This document shows, piece after piece, positions 24,041 through 53,689 of a stretch of 64,000 nt of DNA. Below the pieces are notes generated by a model, which did no database searches, was not told the origin of the DNA, and saw only the letters and a list, made by a program, of their open reading frames with translations. Source of the stretch: a virus; the IMG/VR virus record IMGVR_UViG_3300021180_000006, positions 22,799 through 86,798 of that record; one strand, given 5' to 3'. Both the position numbers and the translations under genes were made by a program. How positions within the stretch are numbered: position 1 is the first letter of the stretch; every line of letters begins with the position of its first letter.

Positions 24041-25003
24041 CTAATTAAAAGTTAATGAATAGTCATCGTCTCCAGAAGTCCGGGTCGCAATAAACTCCAA
24101 CGTGTCCGCCATCACGCCCTCGCGGTCCTCATCCTGCGGCGGGTTATTCAACTGCGCCTTGGGGGCGGAGAACTGGAGTTGGTTGCCCGCCGGGCCAGCG
24201 GTGAAGGCGAAGTTGTAGGTGGTCTGCGCGGTATGGGCCGCGAAAAAGTCCAGCGTCGAGAGCAGGTAGCTTTCCGGGGCAATACGGATTAGAGGCTCGC
24301 GATCGGTGACGATGCCGCCGCGGAATCCGGTGCCGACCGGGGTGGAAGCGCTATCGACGGCGGATTGGTCCTGTCTCAGATAGAGCTTATTTCCCGAATG
24401 AAACTCGAAATTGGGGAAGCGCATCGACTGGCCGCCCACCGTGACCGTCACTCCCGCGAAGCGCGGCGGAATCGTCGTCGGATAGGTAATGCCGCCGGGG
24501 ATGGCCGTCGTCGAAGGGCTCTGCCAGACGCCGTCGAAAGTCCACTCGAAATAGATTGGGTTCCCCGCCTGCGCCCGGATGACGAAGTCGCCAGCGCAAC
24601 CGGCCAGGAGCTTCAAGCGCCCGGCCTGGAACAAACCGATCGAGATGGTGTTGATCGGGCTGGCCGGGGTGGGGGTGAAGGGAGAGAAGGGGCTGCTGGT
24701 GCCGGGACCCAAACCGCAAGCCGGCAGAAGCAAGCTGGCCCAGGCCGGGGCGCCGGCAGTGGAGAAGAACTCGGTGCGGAACGTCGCCTTGCCGGCGCGG
24801 GCGCCGGGGATGGTGAGCAGCTTGGAAAGATACTGCTGTCCCTGGCGGACATTGGGCTTGATGTCCGGGGTGATCTTGGGATCGAAGACGGCGCTGAACA
24901 GTTGGCAGTCGGAGCTGCCGGGCGTGACGACGACGCCGGTCGTAGCCTCGAGTTTTGCGCCGAAAACTCGGTTGCGTACTAACAAGTTTGGGTCGAACGC
25001 CAT
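24041..25003 (-). CDS. Major tail tube protein
   Basis: 320 aa. Begins MAFDPNLLVRNRVFGAKLE, has ITPDIKPNVRQGQQYLSKLL and GARAGKATFRTEF, a strand-rich middle (YFEWTFDGVWQSP) and a DREGVMADTLEFIATR end, a pattern of phage tail tube proteins with internal insertions. Placement upstream of chaperone and tape measure agrees. Expected to be an abundant virion protein. Confidence 0.75.
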   Translation of the reverse strand: MAFDPNLLVRNRVFGAKLEATTGVVVTPGSSDCQLFSAVFDPKITPDIKPNVRQGQQYLSKLLTIPGARAGKATFRTEFFSTAGAPAWASLLLPACGLGPGTSSPFSPFTPTPASPINTISIGLFQAGRLKLLAGCAGDFVIRAQAGNPIYFEWTFDGVWQSPSTTAIPGGITYPTTIPPRFAGVTVTVGGQSMRFPNFEFHSGNKLYLRQDQSAVDSASTPVGTGFRGGIVTDREPLIRIAPESYLLSTLDFFAAHTAQTTYNFAFTAGPAGNQLQFSAPKAQLNNPPQDEDREGVMADTLEFIATRTSGDDDYSLTFN

Positions 25004-25568: not shown

Positions 25569-25575
25569 GATGTTT

Positions 25576-25660
25576 GGTCATTTGTCACTGGTCACTGGTC
25601 ATTGGTCACTTGCCCGAGCCGCGCGGCAAAACAAATGACCAGTGGCAAATGACCAGTGAC
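25576..25660. repeat. TCACTTG-type long hairpin, copy 1
   Basis: Left arm made of seven-base units (GTCATTT, GTCACTG, GTCACTG, GTCATTG, GTCACTT; 25576-25612) and right arm of their complements (25632-25660), with a GC-rich centre. It lies between two leftward genes. Related hairpins are at 48076, 48561 and 50522. Confidence 0.85.
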
Positions 25661-28935: not shown

Positions 28936-29067
28936 AGTTGTTAGAGTCGCGGGCGTTGATCGCTGGTTTCTAATCGCACAAGTACGATTCTCACGCCGCT
29001 CCCGCGAGACGCCTTTCCGGCGATCAACACTCGCGCCGGGGCGGCATGCGCTTCGGAACTTCGGAAG
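28936..29067 (+). ncRNA. Structured leader RNA candidate, copy 1 (upstream of zinc-ribbon array gene)
   Basis: Homologous over about 130 bases to 52143-52273. It begins with an extended -10-like TGTTAGAGT (28939-28947). The predicted start of transcription falls at about 28954, directly before GTTGATCGCTGG (28955-28966), which pairs with CCGGCGATCAAC (29017-29028). Against copy 2, three of the twelve pairs change on both sides and two more change consistently. A small AATCG/CGATT hairpin lies inside. TCGCGGG (28947-28953) and CCCGCGA (29001-29007) could form an alternative stem. Confidence 0.6.
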
Positions 29068-30096
29068 ATGAAGAAGAAATGCTGCGTTTGCGGTGATTTT
29101 TTCACGGCATCGAAATTCACGCCGAACGTTCAAATTCTCTGCGCATCTCCGGAATGCAAATCCAAACATAAGCGGAAGCTTGCCGGCTCGGAGTCGAGGG
29201 GGAGCAAAAAGGCATGCGTGATATGCGGGCTGCAATTCAGTTGTTGGACCCGTCTTCAACTGGCATGCTCTTCAAAAAAATGCCAACGAAGTCTACAGGA
29301 TTCTCGCCGAAGAAGCAGAACAGGGCTCATATTAGCGAACAGTAAATGCTCGATTTGCGGTCGGGACTTCAAGACGGCGTCCAAAAATCGCGTGACCTGC
29401 GGCGCCCTGCGGTGCCGGCGTCAATCCGCAATCCGAAGAAGCCGCCTTCTTTCCGGTTGGATTGCCAAAGAACGGCGCTGCGAATCTTGCGGACGCAGTT
29501 TCCATCCTCGCCACCGCGCACATATTTGCTGTAGCAAAGTCTGCATGAATAAATGCCAAGCCCTTCGCGGTTATCTCTCCCGCGGGTGGCATCCGATGAT
29601 GATGCGGTGTCCGTTTTGCGCTAAAGAATTTATGCCGGACACCCGTCGCCGAGTGACGTGCGGCGCACTCGAATGCAAATCTGCTCTTTCACGCCAGAGG
29701 GCAGGCGTTGAGAAACGAGGGAAAAAAGGAATCTGTCGTTTTTGTGGAAAGGATTTTCTCGCTAGAAATCGTCGGCAGATAACATGCGGTAATACCCCCT
29801 GCCGGCGCAAACTTGACGCCAAGGCGCAGCTTTTCAATTGTTCGATCTGTGGAAGGGCGTTCTGGACATCGCGACATGACCGCATTACATGCGGCGACCC
29901 GAAATGTCAGAAAGAACACTGCCTAGCCCGGCATCGAAATAGAGACCCAATCATCCGGATGAAATTGACGCCGCAGGACTTGGAACGCCGGCGTCAAAAA
30001 GCGTATGACAAATATCACGCGAAACATGATAGAGCGAAGATGGACGAACTCCGACGAATGAAACTCATTTTGAAAGGAGCACTGACCAATGCCTGA
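29068..30096 (+). CDS. Protein of seven tandem zinc ribbons
   Basis: 342 aa. Seven modules of about 35-45 residues each show CxxC, a Phe three residues on, then C..(4)..C: CCVCGDFF, CVICGLQF, CSICGRDF, CESCGRSF, CPFCAKEF, CRFCGKDF and CSICGRAF, each closed by a motif such as VTCGALRCR or ITCGDPKCQ. A basic helical tail (about 290-342) follows. No HNH or other catalytic motif is visible. Single modules of this type occur on phage endonucleases and recombinases, so sequence-specific DNA binding is likely. AT-richer than its surroundings and rightward, it looks acquired. Confidence 0.75.
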   Translation: MKKKCCVCGDFFTASKFTPNVQILCASPECKSKHKRKLAGSESRGSKKACVICGLQFSCWTRLQLACSSKKCQRSLQDSRRRSRTGLILANSKCSICGRDFKTASKNRVTCGALRCRRQSAIRRSRLLSGWIAKERRCESCGRSFHPRHRAHICCSKVCMNKCQALRGYLSRGWHPMMMRCPFCAKEFMPDTRRRVTCGALECKSALSRQRAGVEKRGKKGICRFCGKDFLARNRRQITCGNTPCRRKLDAKAQLFNCSICGRAFWTSRHDRITCGDPKCQKEHCLARHRNRDPIIRMKLTPQDLERRRQKAYDKYHAKHDRAKMDELRRMKLILKGALTNA

Positions 30097-30715
30097 GACA
30101 AAACTGACGACGCGATCGGCTGGACTTCCGAGCTTGGATGATTTCCTCACCAAGTTCGACCGAATGACAAACGAGCAGATCGCCGGTCGAATCACCGAGC
30201 TGCTCGGCATCGACCGCAATGTCGTTCTCGAAATCGCGGCCGGCATCAAAACGATCGAGCTACGCGACCCTAACTCCGAGGAACTTCAACGAGTGAAGGA
30301 GATGACGGGCCTCTTTGAATACTGCCGCCGCGTTGCATTCGACAATCTGTATCCGGACATCATCGTCCGCTTTCATGGTGAGATGCTCCGCTACGTCGCC
30401 GCGCTCACTCGACCAGATCAGGAAAAGGTCTGCGCCAGCGAACGGATGCTCTACGTCGTCATCGAGAACGGCGAGACCAAGAAGACATGGGTTCCCACGA
30501 TGAAGATGCGGACCCGCCACATCCGCCAGATTTTCAATGATCGCAAGATCAACGACGAAGGCGATCAAATCGCCTACGCCCGCGCGAAAATCCCCAACAC
30601 CGGCAAGACAACCAAACCCTACGAAATCCTCAAAGGCGGGACGATCTGCCGGGTTGCAGCCCAAACGGACTGGAACAAATCCGATCTACTGATGATTCTC
30701 GGGCGGATGAAATAG
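30089..30715 (+). CDS. Hypothetical protein, coupled to the zinc-ribbon array gene
   Basis: 208 aa with a strong AAAGGAG site within the end of the preceding gene. Residues 20-110 are helical (LDDFLTKFDRMTNEQIAGRI, LGIDRNVVLEIAAGIKTIEL); residues 120-205 are alpha/beta with ENGETKKTWVPTMKMRTRH. Not recognised. Co-expression with the zinc protein suggests a functional pair. Confidence 0.65.
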   Translation: MPETKLTTRSAGLPSLDDFLTKFDRMTNEQIAGRITELLGIDRNVVLEIAAGIKTIELRDPNSEELQRVKEMTGLFEYCRRVAFDNLYPDIIVRFHGEMLRYVAALTRPDQEKVCASERMLYVVIENGETKKTWVPTMKMRTRHIRQIFNDRKINDEGDQIAYARAKIPNTGKTTKPYEILKGGTICRVAAQTDWNKSDLLMILGRMK

Positions 30716-31051
30716 AAGCACGTCTTCGACCGCCATTTCGGCGTCCCTGTGAAGCAGCGAAAAGTGCTGCCGGAGGAATTCGTTTATTTCCTGAACGGCG
30801 AGCATCATCTTCAATGCCTGAAACGCCAACCGCGCAATCACCCACGCTTGCCTTTCGTCATTGGCACTTCGTGGCGCGGCTGGCAAAAATGCGCCAGCGC
30901 AAGCCGCAGTTTTCACCCTCTCAAAAAGCCAAGAGAATGCACGCCGTTCGCAGAATTGTTGTATCTCGCTTTCGGCTGCGATTCGGCATCCCACGTTGAA
31001 TGGTTGTTCGCAAACCCTTCGACGGTCATGGTCATTCGGGTGATACATCAT
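30686..31051 (-). CDS. Hypothetical partner of the excisionase-like gene
   Basis: 121 aa. The ATG at 31051 overlaps the stop of the upstream helix-turn-helix gene (ATGA), which supports this start over the longer ORF. The protein has an N-terminal Cys/His-containing half and a helical end (ARLAFQALKMMLAVQEINEF). Not recognised. Its last 30 bases overlap the convergent gene. Confidence 0.5.
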   Translation of the reverse strand: MMYHPNDHDRRRVCEQPFNVGCRIAAESEIQQFCERRAFSWLFERVKTAACAGAFLPAAPRSANDERQAWVIARLAFQALKMMLAVQEINEFLRQHFSLLHRDAEMAVEDVLLFHPPENHQ

Positions 31052-31245
31052 TTTCCAGATCGCTTGCCCTTCGGCCCGCGCGGGAGCCTCTTGAACTTGG
31101 CAAGCGACGAAGGATAGATCAGCCAGTCCCGCCCCACCTTCTGGGCCTTCAATCGCTTCTCGTCGATGAACTGGCGGACGCGATGCACCCCCACGCCCAA
31201 GAGCTTCCCCGCCTCCGCCGTCGTCAATGAGGGTTTTTCGCCCAT
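31048..31245 (-). CDS. Excisionase/MerR-type helix-turn-helix protein
   Basis: 65 aa. LTTAEAGKLLGVGVHRVRQF is a clear winged helix-turn-helix of the excisionase (SinR/MerR-like HTH_17) class, followed by DEKRLKAQKVGRDWLI and a basic tail. Probably a DNA-binding regulator or recombination directionality factor. Divergent from the gene at 31354 across a palindromic region that may be its operator. Confidence 0.75.
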   Translation of the reverse strand: MGEKPSLTTAEAGKLLGVGVHRVRQFIDEKRLKAQKVGRDWLIYPSSLAKFKRLPRGPKGKRSGK

Positions 31246-48635: not shown

Positions 48636-50429
48636 TTAATGCCCGGCGTTCTTGTAGACGCCGCGGAAGTCGATGGCCTTTCCGGCAACCGTATGGCGCA
48701 CCAGGTATTTCACGTCCTCGGTGTCGAAGTCGGTCTCCTGGCGGATGACGGGCTCGGGCTCGTCGGTCAGGAAGCTGAGTTCGATGGTGTTGACCTGTCC
48801 GTCGCGGAAATCGGCCACCAGGAACCAGGCTTGCGTGTCGGCATCGTCCAGACGGACGCTCCCGACCACCTGGTAGCGGTTGTTGTAGGGGTTGAAATCG
48901 CCCACCGTCTGCGGCACCGCAGCCGACGACGACTGGCTGGCGATCAGGGTCCGGGAACCGATCAGTTCCTTGGTCTGCTCCTCGATCGAGGAGGGGACCA
49001 GGAGGAACTTGGGCTCCAATTCAAGGCGGGCCGCACCGGCCAGACCTTTCTGCTTCTTCATCGCCGTCGAGCCGATTTGAAGCTGGAGCACGCTGGGCAC
49101 GCCGCCCGAACCGGCGGTGGTGAGGTTGCTGTGGGCGGCGGAGAAGATGGCGTTGCCGTCGGCCATGTTGGCGTTGCCGGTGATGACGGCGTAGGCCACG
49201 TCGTCTTCCTTACGGGCGGCGGAATTGGCCTGCGCCCTGGGAATTGCGCTAAAAGCATCCAAGTCGTCGTTAATGATGGCGTTGCGCGTTAAACGGACAC
49301 CAGCTTTGTACGTGACCAGCACGTAGGTCTCTTTCGAGTCCTGGAGCTGGACGTACTGCATTTCGCCGGCTTCGTTGGCCGCGACCATGTTCGGGGCTTC
49401 CGACAGGACAACCCGATTGATGTTCTTGAAGTCCGGGTTGAAGCGCTTCTCCGCCCAGGCGGGCCAGGTCCGCTTGGCGTCCAGATAGTTGAAGCGCAAA
49501 CTTTTGTTGATCGCGTCGAGCGTGATGTTGCCGAAATCCGGGGTGGATTCCGCCAACGCCGCCATGCGCGGGAAGGCTTGCCGCATGCGGCGCGGGCCCA
49601 GGCAATCGGCCAGGCGGGTCTTGGAGTAGCCGTAGACCTCGGTGAATCCAAGGGACGCCAGGTAATGCCGGAACATGTCGAGCATGGACAGCTCGCGCAG
49701 TTCCTTGGCCCGATCGAGGATCTTGCCCTCGTATTTGATGATCTGCTCGGCCGCCAGTCCGGCGCGGAGCACGATGGCCTGCGGCATGGCGGCGCGCAGG
49801 CTGGCGAGGTTCTTGTCCTCGCCCACCTTCACGCTCAGGAGCGGCTTGGCCGACTCGTGCACGTAGCGCAGGATGGCCATCCGGGCCTGCTCGAAGGTGC
49901 CGTTTTCCGCGATCACCGTATTGGCATAGGCATCGGGAACGGCGTGCAGGGCGGCCAGTTTGCGGATGCGGGCCACTCTTTTTGCCTCGAAATCCAATGC
50001 CGCGTTGTCGTTGTCGGCATCGTCCAGCTTGGCGGCGACACCGCCGGCCGCCGGCGCTTGCATGCGCTGGCCCTGGGGGAGTTTGGCGCCGGTGGCGGCG
50101 CCCAGTGCGGCGATCGCGGCCTCGGTGGCCAGCTTGATGATCTGCTCCTGGCTCATGCCGGTGGCGGGGACGGCCACGCCCTGGCCGGGCAATGCGCCAG
50201 CGGCGCCGGAATCGCCGGAGTTGCCGGCGACGGAGGGCTGGCCGGGAACGGGCGGGCCGGCGTGCAGGCCGGTATCGCCGCCGTCGCCGTCCATCATGCG
50301 CGCGAGCTTGGCGTCGATGTCGGCGCGTTTGTCGGCCGACAGGCCGTCGTAATAGGACTTGGCGTCATCATCTGAGGCATCGGCGTCGCAGCCGTTCGCC
50401 ACGAGAAGTGACTTGAGATGGGGGTGCAT
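48636..50429 (-). CDS. Major capsid protein with N-terminal scaffold-like region
   Basis: 597 aa from ATG 50429, preceded by AAGGAG. Residues 1-190 are Ala/Gly/Asp-rich and probably a cleaved scaffold or delta domain. From about 200 the capsid domain follows: LRELSMLDMFRHYLASLGF, PAWAEKRFNPDFKNINRVVL, YAVITGNANMADGNAIFSAA and LSFLTDEPEPVIRQETDFDT, as in the Mu gpT/protease-associated capsid families. Upstream protease and downstream decoration gene agree. Should be the most abundant virion protein. Confidence 0.8.
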   Translation of the reverse strand: MHPHLKSLLVANGCDADASDDDAKSYYDGLSADKRADIDAKLARMMDGDGGDTGLHAGPPVPGQPSVAGNSGDSGAAGALPGQGVAVPATGMSQEQIIKLATEAAIAALGAATGAKLPQGQRMQAPAAGGVAAKLDDADNDNAALDFEAKRVARIRKLAALHAVPDAYANTVIAENGTFEQARMAILRYVHESAKPLLSVKVGEDKNLASLRAAMPQAIVLRAGLAAEQIIKYEGKILDRAKELRELSMLDMFRHYLASLGFTEVYGYSKTRLADCLGPRRMRQAFPRMAALAESTPDFGNITLDAINKSLRFNYLDAKRTWPAWAEKRFNPDFKNINRVVLSEAPNMVAANEAGEMQYVQLQDSKETYVLVTYKAGVRLTRNAIINDDLDAFSAIPRAQANSAARKEDDVAYAVITGNANMADGNAIFSAAHSNLTTAGSGGVPSVLQLQIGSTAMKKQKGLAGAARLELEPKFLLVPSSIEEQTKELIGSRTLIASQSSSAAVPQTVGDFNPYNNRYQVVGSVRLDDADTQAWFLVADFRDGQVNTIELSFLTDEPEPVIRQETDFDTEDVKYLVRHTVAGKAIDFRGVYKNAGH

Positions 50430-50521
50430 ATGCACTCCTTCAAAAATGGAGAGGGAGAACGAACTGCGACCCGGCAACGCGCCGAGTCCATGCACCGCCG
50501 TTTTCAAGAGCTGGTGGGGGA

Positions 50522-50640
50522 GGTCACTCGTCATTGGTCACTGGTCATTTGTTTAGGGTTCCCATCCGCGATCAATCGCGGATGGGAGGCCCTTGGGCGC
50601 GCGGCCCTGGCAAGTGACCAGTGACAAGTGACAAATGACC
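50522..50640. repeat. TCACTTG-type long hairpin, copy 4
   Basis: Left arm 50522-50551, right arm 50610-50640. Inside is a perfect 12-bp hairpin CCCATCCGCGAT/ATCGCGGATGGG (50561-50586) and TTGGGCGCGCG near 50594, shared with copy 2. It is in the leader between protease and major capsid gene. Confidence 0.85.
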
Positions 50641-52142: not shown

Positions 52143-52273
52143 AAGTTGTTAGAATGGCGGCGTCAGTCGCCAGGTTCACGATCCACAATTCACGCCGTCC
52201 CTCGCCGCGAGAAGTCTTTCTGGCGATTGACCTCGCGCGGGGGCGGCGCTGCGCCGGACAGGAAGAAAACAAA
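52143..52273 (+). ncRNA. Structured leader RNA candidate, copy 2 (upstream of HNH gene)
   Basis: Begins AGTTGTTAGAAT with an extended -10 (TG-T-TAGAAT, 52147-52155). The predicted start falls at about 52161, directly before GTCAGTCGCCAG (52162-52173), which pairs with CTGGCGATTGAC (52220-52231) with one G-U pair. Conserved with copy 1: TCACGCCG, CGCGAGA, CTTTC.GGCGAT and GGGGCGGC. A final GGCGC/GCGCC hairpin lies before the ribosome site GGAAG. Confidence 0.6.
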
Positions 52274-53166
52274 TTGAAGCCCCTCATCAAACTTGGCGAT
52301 CATTTCGGGCGCTTGACCGTCGCGGAATCTCTCGGCTCCAAGCTCATGAACGGCAAACGGCGCAGTCTGTGGCGTTGCACTTGCGAATGCGGTGGAGAAG
52401 CGACGACCATCACGGCATCTCTGAGAAACGGAACAACGCGGAGTTGCGGATGCCTGCGTGGTTCAGCCCATTTCAAACGGGCGACGAATCAAAATGACGA
52501 GGTGCTTCCGACGAAGGATTTGCGCGGCAAGGTCTTCGGGCGACTTCGGGTCATGAAGTTCGATGGCTATCGAAGATTTAAAGGGGGCCAAAATAGACCA
52601 AACGGCGCTTCGCGCGGAATGTGGCTCTGTCAATGCGAATGTGGAAACACCACGATTGTCGAAACGTCGTCGCTGACCACGGGGAACGCTAAAAGCTGCG
52701 GATGCCTCCAGCGCCATCGGGCTTCGGAAGCCAAAACGGGGACGATTCCCAAATCCCGCCTGCGTCTCGGCGAATCGGAAATGCGAAGAACCTTCCGAAA
52801 CTGCCGTCGCACCGCCTTAAAGAAGGGCTTTGCATTCGAGTTGGACGTAGAAACGTTTCACCGGATCACACGGTCGAATTGTCATTACTGTGGCGCGGAA
52901 CCCGCTGGCTTTAGTAAAACCGGAAGGGCTTTCGGACCTTACGTCCACAACGGCATCGATCGCGTGAACAATAATCTCGGCTATCTCATGTCCAATTGCG
53001 TCCGGCCAAACGTCACATGGATGTCTCCACTTTTCTACGCTGGGCGCGGGCCGTCACGATGAACATGGACCGTAAGCGGCACGAATGCCCCGGCCAACTT
53101 AGTCTATTCGAGCCTGTTGCGCAGTCGGTTCAGACCAGCAGCGCCGTCAATTCCTCGTCATCCTGA
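52274..53166 (+). pseudogene. HNH endonuclease with two zinc-binding repeats, disrupted near the active site
   Basis: The intact frame runs from a TTG at 52274 (AGGAAG ahead) to 53062, 262 aa. Two repeats of the form W-C-x-C-x-CG then SCGCL (52364-52460 and 52621-52715) precede an HNH core, CHYCGAEPAGF then NGIDRVNNNLGY. At about 53000-53006 the frame breaks. The other frame continues as AKRHMDVSTFLRWARAVT to 53166, the normal HNH end. The usual CxxC..CN segment between is missing, so a deletion of roughly 15-20 bases, not a multiple of three, is inferred. Confidence 0.7.
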
Positions 53167-53224
53167 TAGCGCCGGGCCAGCAGCGGATCGGCCTCGAAGC
53201 TGCGGGCGGACAGATCGAGCGGGC
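53135..53224 (-). pseudogene. Remnant resembling the C-terminus of the next virion gene
   Basis: Read leftward, a frame ending at 53133 gives ARSFEADPLLARRYQDDEE then LTALLV, similar to the end of the adjacent protein (IARLKREDELLLLV). No start codon is visible. Either a C-terminal fragment of a duplicated gene or a frameshift extension of its neighbour. Confidence 0.35.
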
Positions 53225-53689
53225 TCAGACCAGCAACAGCAGCTCGTCCTCGCGTTTGAGTCGGGCGATGCGGTCCTCGAAGGAAGTGTCACCGTGCAGA
53301 GCCAGCGCCATTCTCAATCGTGCCGAGCGCCCGAAGGTCCGGGCTCCAGTGATCTGGACCGAGCGTCCGCCGAAGTTGAAGCGCAAGAGCGAAGGCGTGG
53401 CATCGGCGAAATGATCCTGCCGGGGCGATTGCGAACTGGCGGCGGCGCGGAGGGTGAAGGCCAGACGCCCGAGGATGCCGGTATCGTTCTGCTCGGGCTC
53501 CTCGTACCAGCCACCCAGCGCTCCCCCGCCAGCTTGAGGGCGAATTACCGGGACGATGACGGTGACGGTGCCGACGCTGCCGGTGGCGCTGACGCCGCTG
53601 ACGACGACGGTGACATTGCCGCCGACGGAATAGCTGAGGGCGTATTCGCCGAAATACCCGCCGCCGAATGATTCGCTGCCGAAGGCCAT
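53225..53689 (-). CDS. Small virion protein
   Basis: 154 aa. Gly/Ser/Val-rich beta sequence at the N-terminus (SESFGGGYFGEYALSYSVGG, VTVVVSGVSATGSVGTVTVI) and a helical charged end. Typical of phage fibre or decoration proteins. Position just before the capsid protease in transcription order. Confidence 0.55.
   Translation of the reverse strand: MAFGSESFGGGYFGEYALSYSVGGNVTVVVSGVSATGSVGTVTVIVPVIRPQAGGGALGGWYEEPEQNDTGILGRLAFTLRAAASSQSPRQDHFADATPSLLRFNFGGRSVQITGARTFGRSARLRMALALHGDTSFEDRIARLKREDELLLLV

Follow-up and report, generated by a model that had tools for sequence, protein, structure and literature searches.

Why should two unlike genes of one phage be preceded by the same short stretch of DNA, and does that stretch act as RNA, as DNA, or as part of a protein? 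The question arises from two gene cassettes in the 86.8-kb record of an uncultured phage in IMG/VR, IMGVR_UViG_3300021180_000006. Positions 22799-86798 of this record were studied; this stretch of 64,000 nt is called the window here, and its features are listed in Table 1. A PHROGs family was matched by 5 of the 20 large ORFs that were scanned in the window. Relatives of the capsid protein were found at 28 loci in IMG/VR, but they were only 25-36% identical, and those in the ten phage records listed were about 31% identical. Therefore, no near relative of this phage was at hand.

The two stretches, leader copies A and B, were compared by blastn inside the window and were 81% identical over 59 columns (E 3.7e-8). 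A gap-friendly search extended the match to 28936-29051 against 52144-52254, with 71% identity over 122 columns (E 2.8e-10). This confirmed what an earlier note on this DNA had claimed, namely that the leaders are homologous and are followed by unlike genes. The homology runs from AGTTGTTAGA to just 5' of the ribosome-binding region and stops before the genes; the first 115 columns of the alignment contain gaps of 1, 8, 4, and 1 columns. A model built from both copies found A and B as the sole places in the 86.8-kb record. Both leaders fold into structures that are more stable than those of dinucleotide shuffles (A, z -2.65, reached by 2 of 200; B, z -2.97, reached by 0 of 200). Their GC content of 60-61% is like that of the phage (61.4% overall), and the cassette genes have 52-56%. 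We take the shared stretch to be non-coding.

The seven zinc ribbons that the earlier note had counted in the first protein of cassette A were found again as seven CxxC...C units. This 342-aa protein matched an HNH endonuclease family, phrog_1271, at 4.8e-9, with the best stretch at residues 79-215. Since this HNH profile matches the zinc-ribbon part only and searches of Pfam, PHROGs, and NCBIfam assigned the second ORF to no family at E 0.001 or better, no nuclease domain was found in cassette A. The second ORF (208 aa) is a possible partner of the zinc array, and its AlphaFold model was unusable (pLDDT 34.6). No relatives were found for either protein.

The protein of cassette B has the two zinc-ribbon repeats and the HNH domain previously ascribed to it, but the end of the HNH domain is broken. 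An HNH-family protein with DNA-binding repeats has the composition of a free-standing phage HNH homing endonuclease, and this one is 33% identical over 97% of its length (as query) to an HNH gene of Xanthomonas phage phiXaf18. Its C-terminal end is lost or out of frame after SNCV, leaving the catalytic core incomplete. The missing Cys/Asn end is kept in two of three aligned relatives (phiXaf18 and Acinetobacter phage phi1_092033); the third, a Moonbeam protein, aligns poorly there. Because of this loss relative to its relatives, the B protein as written probably has no activity, barring an assembly error at this point. It matched no solved structure at E 0.1.

Both cassettes point rightward between leftward ORFs. 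In phiXaf18, the annotation places the relative, an HNH gene without an intron, between head genes and marks a promoter and a terminator at the junction. Given their orientation, their lower GC content, and this arrangement in phiXaf18, the cassettes look like free-standing insertions of the homing-endonuclease type. The mobile module suggested in the earlier note is thus plausible for the cassettes, but movement of the leader by itself goes beyond what was established. No near relative with an empty insertion site was found, the capsid relatives being as distant as stated above. Beside cassette B, the tail of a leftward gene (53225-53689) is nearly duplicated as a 71% direct repeat (53127-53157 and 53222-53252), possibly a scar of insertion or recombination. 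Cassette A is adjoined by a 65-aa ORF on the minus strand (31048-31245), which we take to resemble an excisionase/MerR-type helix-turn-helix protein. Further to the left, at 25574-25660, short GGTCA(C/T)T-like tandem units lie opposite inverted copies, and a long hairpin is possible there.

Table 1. Positions in the window of the two leaders, their helices, the cassette genes, and other features of the phage.
Feature	Positions	Strand	Remarks
Leader copy A	28936-29067	+	Homology to copy B stops near 29051
Extended -10-like TGTTAGAGT	28939-28947	+	Putative promoter, copy A; predicted start ~28954
P1 5' arm, copy A: GTTGATCGCTGG	28955-28966	+	
P2 5' arm, copy A: GCCGCTCC + CGCGAG	28995-29008	+	
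P1 3' arm, copy A: CCGGCGATCAAC	29017-29028	+	50 nt between arms
P2 3' arm, copy A: CTCGCG + 2-nt bulge (CC) + GGGGCGGC	29030-29045	+	
342-aa protein, seven zinc-ribbon-like units (CxxC...C)	29068-30096	+	Cassette A
Weak terminator-like hairpin and T-run	29080-29095		Inside first codons of zinc-array gene (A)
208-aa second ORF	30089-30715	+	Cassette A; overlaps zinc-array gene
Leader copy B	52143-52273	+	Homology to copy A stops near 52254
Extended -10-like TGTTAGAAT	52147-52155	+	Putative promoter, copy B
P1 5' arm, copy B: GTCAGTCGCCAG	52162-52173	+	
P2 5' arm, copy B: GCCGTCCC, CGC, GCGAG, single-base bulges	52194-52211	+	
P1 3' arm, copy B: CTGGCGATTGAC	52220-52231	+	46 nt between arms
P2 3' arm, copy B: CTCGC, GCG, GGGGCGGC	52232-52247	+	
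AGGAAG Shine-Dalgarno-like site	52260-52265	+	Before TTG start at 52274
Zinc-ribbon/HNH endonuclease-like gene	52274-53062	+	Cassette B; phrog_374, 1.8e-33
Minor-tail-like protein	24041-25003	leftward	PHROGs scan
Fused protease/major capsid protein	48636-50534	leftward	phrog_4523, 3e-96

According to the earlier note, a 12-base arm in each leader pairs with a second arm about 50 bases further on, and between the copies both bases differ in three of the pairs and two pairs change consistently. Both observations held. This helix, P1, is intact at 12 bp in each copy: three pairs differ on both sides, two on one side, and seven are invariant, with no pair broken. The two one-sided changes are both G-U compatible. 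All 8 differences among the 24 arm positions are transitions; in the rest of columns 1-115, where 77 were compared, there are 8 transitions and 8 transversions. When 5 + 3 changes were placed at random on the arms, survival of all 12 pairs had a p of 1.4e-4 to 4.2e-3 for a transition share of 0.5-0.7, and of 0.0095 to 0.054 if every change was a transition. In the alignment shuffle control, which has little power with two rows, the value observed for P1 with its outer pairs was reached by 84 of 500. Plain shuffling of the 160 bases upstream of the gene gave a stem at least as long in 10 (A) and 2 (B) of 200 cases, and the energy of the P1 region was reached by 11 (A) and 41 (B) of 1000 dinucleotide shuffles. 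Since the alignment and stem-length controls were reached, the covariation in P1, drawn from two sequences, is suggestive but is not proof. We did not count an outer extension of P1 (GCGGG pairing with CTCGC), as it occupies the 3' strand of P2 and lies upstream of the predicted start.

The internal blocks that the earlier note had listed as conserved are real, and they pair with each other in a helix that was not seen at that time. This second helix, P2, is 14 bp long in A and 16 bp in B. Its 5' strand sits in the loop of P1 and its 3' strand directly follows P1; the connectors are 28 (A) or 20 (B) nt, 8 nt, and 1 (A) or 0 (B) nt. P1 and P2 therefore cross, and because they have no bases in common, an H-type pseudoknot or an alternation between two folds is possible. 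P2 shows no both-sided change and two one-sided changes, with 2 of its 28 arm positions varying. When P1 and P2 were scored together, 26 of 26 pairs (52 of 52 cells) held in both copies, compared to 31-53% of the cells when the partners were slid by 1-3 columns. Part of this excess is to be expected, because these two sequences were themselves used to draw the structure. The observed values for P1 and P2 were reached by 73 of 500 in the alignment shuffle control. The energy of the best duplex between the loop and the 3' flank, the core of which is P2, was reached by 14 (A) and 3 (B) of 1000 dinucleotide shuffles.

A scan of both strands of the window for a 12-bp stem with P1's span, crossed by a helix of 14 or more pairs, picked out A (14), B (16), and, near 25.6 and 27.6 kb, two stretches of simple repeats, and no other place. 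At two further places the crossing helix had 13 pairs. A relaxed scan (10 + 6 bp) was unspecific, with 24 places on the plus strand and 9 on the minus strand. Nested folding from the predicted start placed P2, not P1, in the minimum-energy fold; folding from a few bases further upstream gave P1 in A and a P2-containing fold in B. Judged from their sequences, both helices are possible and unbroken in A and B, and they would act as a pseudoknot or as a two-state switch.

The earlier note had looked for support in further copies upstream of zinc-ribbon or HNH genes, and none were found in IMG/VR, GTDB, or Rfam. No third copy was detected in four exact-pattern scans of IMG/VR, in one of GTDB, or with the model on 67 phage or viral records and about 930 bacterial genomes. 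The IMG/VR scans yielded 22, 3, 60, and 54 stretches and the scan of GTDB bacterial and archaeal genomes yielded 61, all of which were judged to be chance. The best flanking helix in the 60-stretch scan was 10 bp. Among the 115 matches from the 54-stretch and GTDB scans, a 12-bp helix was found in two, and none was followed by GGGGCGG. From the 22-stretch scan, 3 were searched with the model as loci and 11 (the same 3 among them) as whole records; the remaining 11 were judged by reading. Model scores in the pattern loci tested did not exceed 19.5 bits.

Relatives of the B protein were found at 32 HNH loci. The model was run on 29 of them, the window, and the rest of the record, and it returned A, B, and two 10-bit noise matches. 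The model thus detected no leader at the 29 of 32 HNH loci given to it, which counts against the cis-acting leader proposed below. No match was found at E 1 in 50 whole records (24 of the 28 with capsid relatives and 26 of the 32 with HNH relatives) or at E 0.1 in another 17 records, which included three named phages. Helices upstream of the HNH relatives, with 24 of 32 loci given and 23 assessed, were mostly as in plain shuffles. A separate observation is a 13-bp stem with a span of about 70 bases upstream of one HNH relative (L030, about 1850-1935), which 0 of 30 shuffles reach and which may be coding DNA.

A first set of 6 bacterial genomes gave no match to the model. Searches of 297, 294, and 337 genomes, run with stricter filters by which weak matches are lost, gave one match each (at E 0.01, 0.01, and 5e-4, respectively). 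All three matches (22.8, 25.6, and 31.5 bits; 928 genomes) were rejected because they lie in protein-coding DNA: one antisense to a 438-aa ORF (L267), one in what is presumably a gyrase-like stretch (L268), and one within a 442-aa ORF (L269) that we take to be a TRAP-type binding protein. They indicate that false positives of the two-sequence model can have E values as low as 2.4e-5. Blastn against phages found nothing for A and short matches only for B (best E 0.4), and against plasmids it found short matches only for A. Rfam had no match in the window at the gathering threshold; at E up to 10, each leader had two sub-threshold matches on the minus strand (four in all), and none was HEARO. 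The leader family is undescribed in Rfam and in the literature searched and is a probable new leader RNA. The absence of further homologs is weak evidence, because the bacterial groups were picked without knowledge of the host and the collections may omit close kin of this phage.

We give about an even chance to the explanation that the leader is a cis-acting 5' element that brings its own promoter and controls the expression of mobile nuclease-type genes. It would be a leader RNA that is probably new but whose kind of function is known. In this scheme, a 5' leader of about 95-115 nt would be carried by two free-standing homing-endonuclease-type cassettes of one phage, each with its own extended -10 promoter. 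The transcript would begin at or just before P1, fold P1, and be able to add P2, and the two helices would form an H-type pseudoknot or alternate. This fold would be placed just upstream of the ribosome footprint, where it could limit or time the translation, or stabilize the message, of nucleic-acid-binding proteins whose unrestrained production would do harm. The most plausible route would be a binding platform for a protein, either the zinc-ribbon product itself or another factor, as with gp32 on its own mRNA pseudoknot. The transcript, its regulatory role, and its binding partner are all putative.

Several of the results weigh against this explanation: the comparison has two sequences only, no pair of P2 is changed on both sides, nested folding from the predicted start favors P2 over P1, the two long helices would have to coexist across connectors of 8 nt and 0-1 nt, the alignment shuffle controls were reached both for P1 with its outer pairs and for P1 with P2, and the leaders resemble the phage in GC content and not the cassette genes. 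Also, since the B gene is broken, the B leader may no longer be under selection. The promoter is a further point. The extended -10-like TGTTAGA(G/A)T claimed in the earlier note is present at both sites, but a sigma-70 consensus scan called no promoter at either, and we infer the promoter and the transcription start of both leaders. There is no clear sequestration of the ribosome-binding site: P2 stops 22 nt (A) or 26 nt (B) short of the start codon, and a possible pairing of CUUUC with the site amounts to only 5-6 bp. The reading frame of leader B, which is open, is considered below.

The strongest rival is that the element acts as DNA, being an inverted repeat (an operator or a mobility/insertion site) that zinc-ribbon proteins bind beside the promoter. 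Both downstream proteins look DNA-binding, and the repeat starts directly behind the -10-like site. There is also a precedent in the autorepression of I-TevI at an operator over its own promoter (PMC2988022). Moreover, matched half-sites would change in concert just as paired RNA strands would. The two asymmetric positions in P1 are G-U compatible, which RNA tolerates and an operator does not need, although with two of two positions this is a weak argument. The half-sites are 46-50 nt apart, and P2, formed over other conserved blocks, would be superfluous for a simple operator. On balance, we consider a DNA operator unlikely. These considerations also bear on the earlier conclusion that selection has acted on the RNA fold. 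A common structured leader before two unlike cassettes, pairing-preserving changes, and, in addition, a crossing helix were all found, but selection on the fold was not established: two sequences are insufficient for it, a DNA inverted repeat would covary as well, and no further homologs were found in the collections searched.

Another possible explanation is that the copies are the common left end of one lineage of mobile cassettes, recently copied, with a barely functional fold and an exchanged gene behind it. This would fit the finding of only two copies, both in one phage, the decay of the B gene, and the near-duplicate gene tail beside cassette B, which hints at recombination. Free drift, though, would not be expected to change 8 of 24 arm positions in P1 without breaking a pair, compared to 2 of 28 in P2, and this explanation seems to us rather improbable.

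The leader could also be a small RNA that acts in trans, or a sponge, transcribed from the cassette promoter independently of the gene behind. That the leader is common while the genes differ would agree with this, as would the weak terminator-like hairpin and T-run in A. However, the genes follow the leaders directly, no terminator-like site lies between P2 and the start codon in either copy, and B has none nearby. The site in A is within chance, with 3 terminator-like sites found in the region and 3.7 expected. Together, these results make a small RNA quite improbable. Under the cis-acting explanation, the same hairpin in A would allow attenuation in that copy and is a possible attenuator.

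The closest known systems for a cis-acting leader are found in T4-type phages. PMC2988022 describes RNA structures and operators that limit the expression of T4-type homing endonuclease genes. I-TevI, I-TevII, I-TevIII, segB, and mobE of Aeh1 have a structured RNA directly before the endonuclease gene and a promoter immediately upstream, which is the arrangement proposed here. Those leaders are described as hairpins that mostly hide the ribosome-binding site, whereas the two crossing helices described here leave it largely outside. P1 and P2 both end upstream of the site and form no Shine-Dalgarno-pairing hairpin. Because the site is not clearly hidden, the leader is not a classical T4 hairpin. 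In this it is like seg43 of Aeromonas phage 25, whose stable hairpin likewise leaves the site unhidden. Also unlike the T4-type leaders, the same leader here serves two unrelated genes.

A second likeness is to gene 32 of T4 and RB69, in which, according to PMC535899, the operator of the protein includes a 5' pseudoknot. Here too, a pseudoknot, in this case a predicted one, lies upstream of the ribosome-binding site in the message of a nucleic-acid-binding protein. The T4 gene 32 pseudoknot is about 28 nt and is followed by a UUAAA-rich stretch, whereas the leader here is about 90 nt and GC-rich.

An RNA-like element with a possible pseudoknot before an HNH-containing gene also recalls the HEARO/omega RNA of IscB-type elements, and a guide-like RNA used by the nuclease behind the leader was among the proposals of the earlier note. 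This proposal found no support and is very improbable: Rfam gave no HEARO match, the same leader also precedes a protein in which no HNH was found, and in Pfam, PHROGs, and NCBIfam the cassette proteins were assigned to phage zinc-ribbon/HNH families, with no match to an RNA-guided nuclease family and no IscB/IsrB/IshB-type neighbor among the results.

It is just as improbable that the conserved stretch encodes an N-terminal extension common to both proteins; the B leader is open in frame into its gene with an ATG at 52154, and tblastx of the 3' part of the leaders gave a weak in-frame match (36 aa, 36%, E 0.002), but leader A has an in-frame stop at 28957 and no ATG, GTG, or TTG between it and 29068, the five changes in an in-frame stretch of 27 nt fall at codon positions 1, 2, 2, 3, and 3 with no third-position excess, and the TTG start of the B protein aligns with the start of its phiXaf18 relative.

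Returning to the cis-acting leader, a broader version of it would be a hitherto undescribed family of pseudoknotted or two-state leaders that moves as a promoter-plus-RNA unit before unrelated phage zinc-ribbon genes and is read by a zinc-ribbon protein, cross-controlling the cassettes. We regard this version as doubtful. If it were true, the product of one invading cassette would control the message of another through their common RNA. Mobile nuclease genes of phages must be expressed without harming the phage, for which the T4-type phages use hairpins and operators. From a leader shared by two cassettes, the clear prediction is that both copies should answer to a common factor. The leader pair would give a small, directly testable pseudoknot system, and one folded leader reused by two unrelated cassettes would show that the control element is a modular, exchangeable part.
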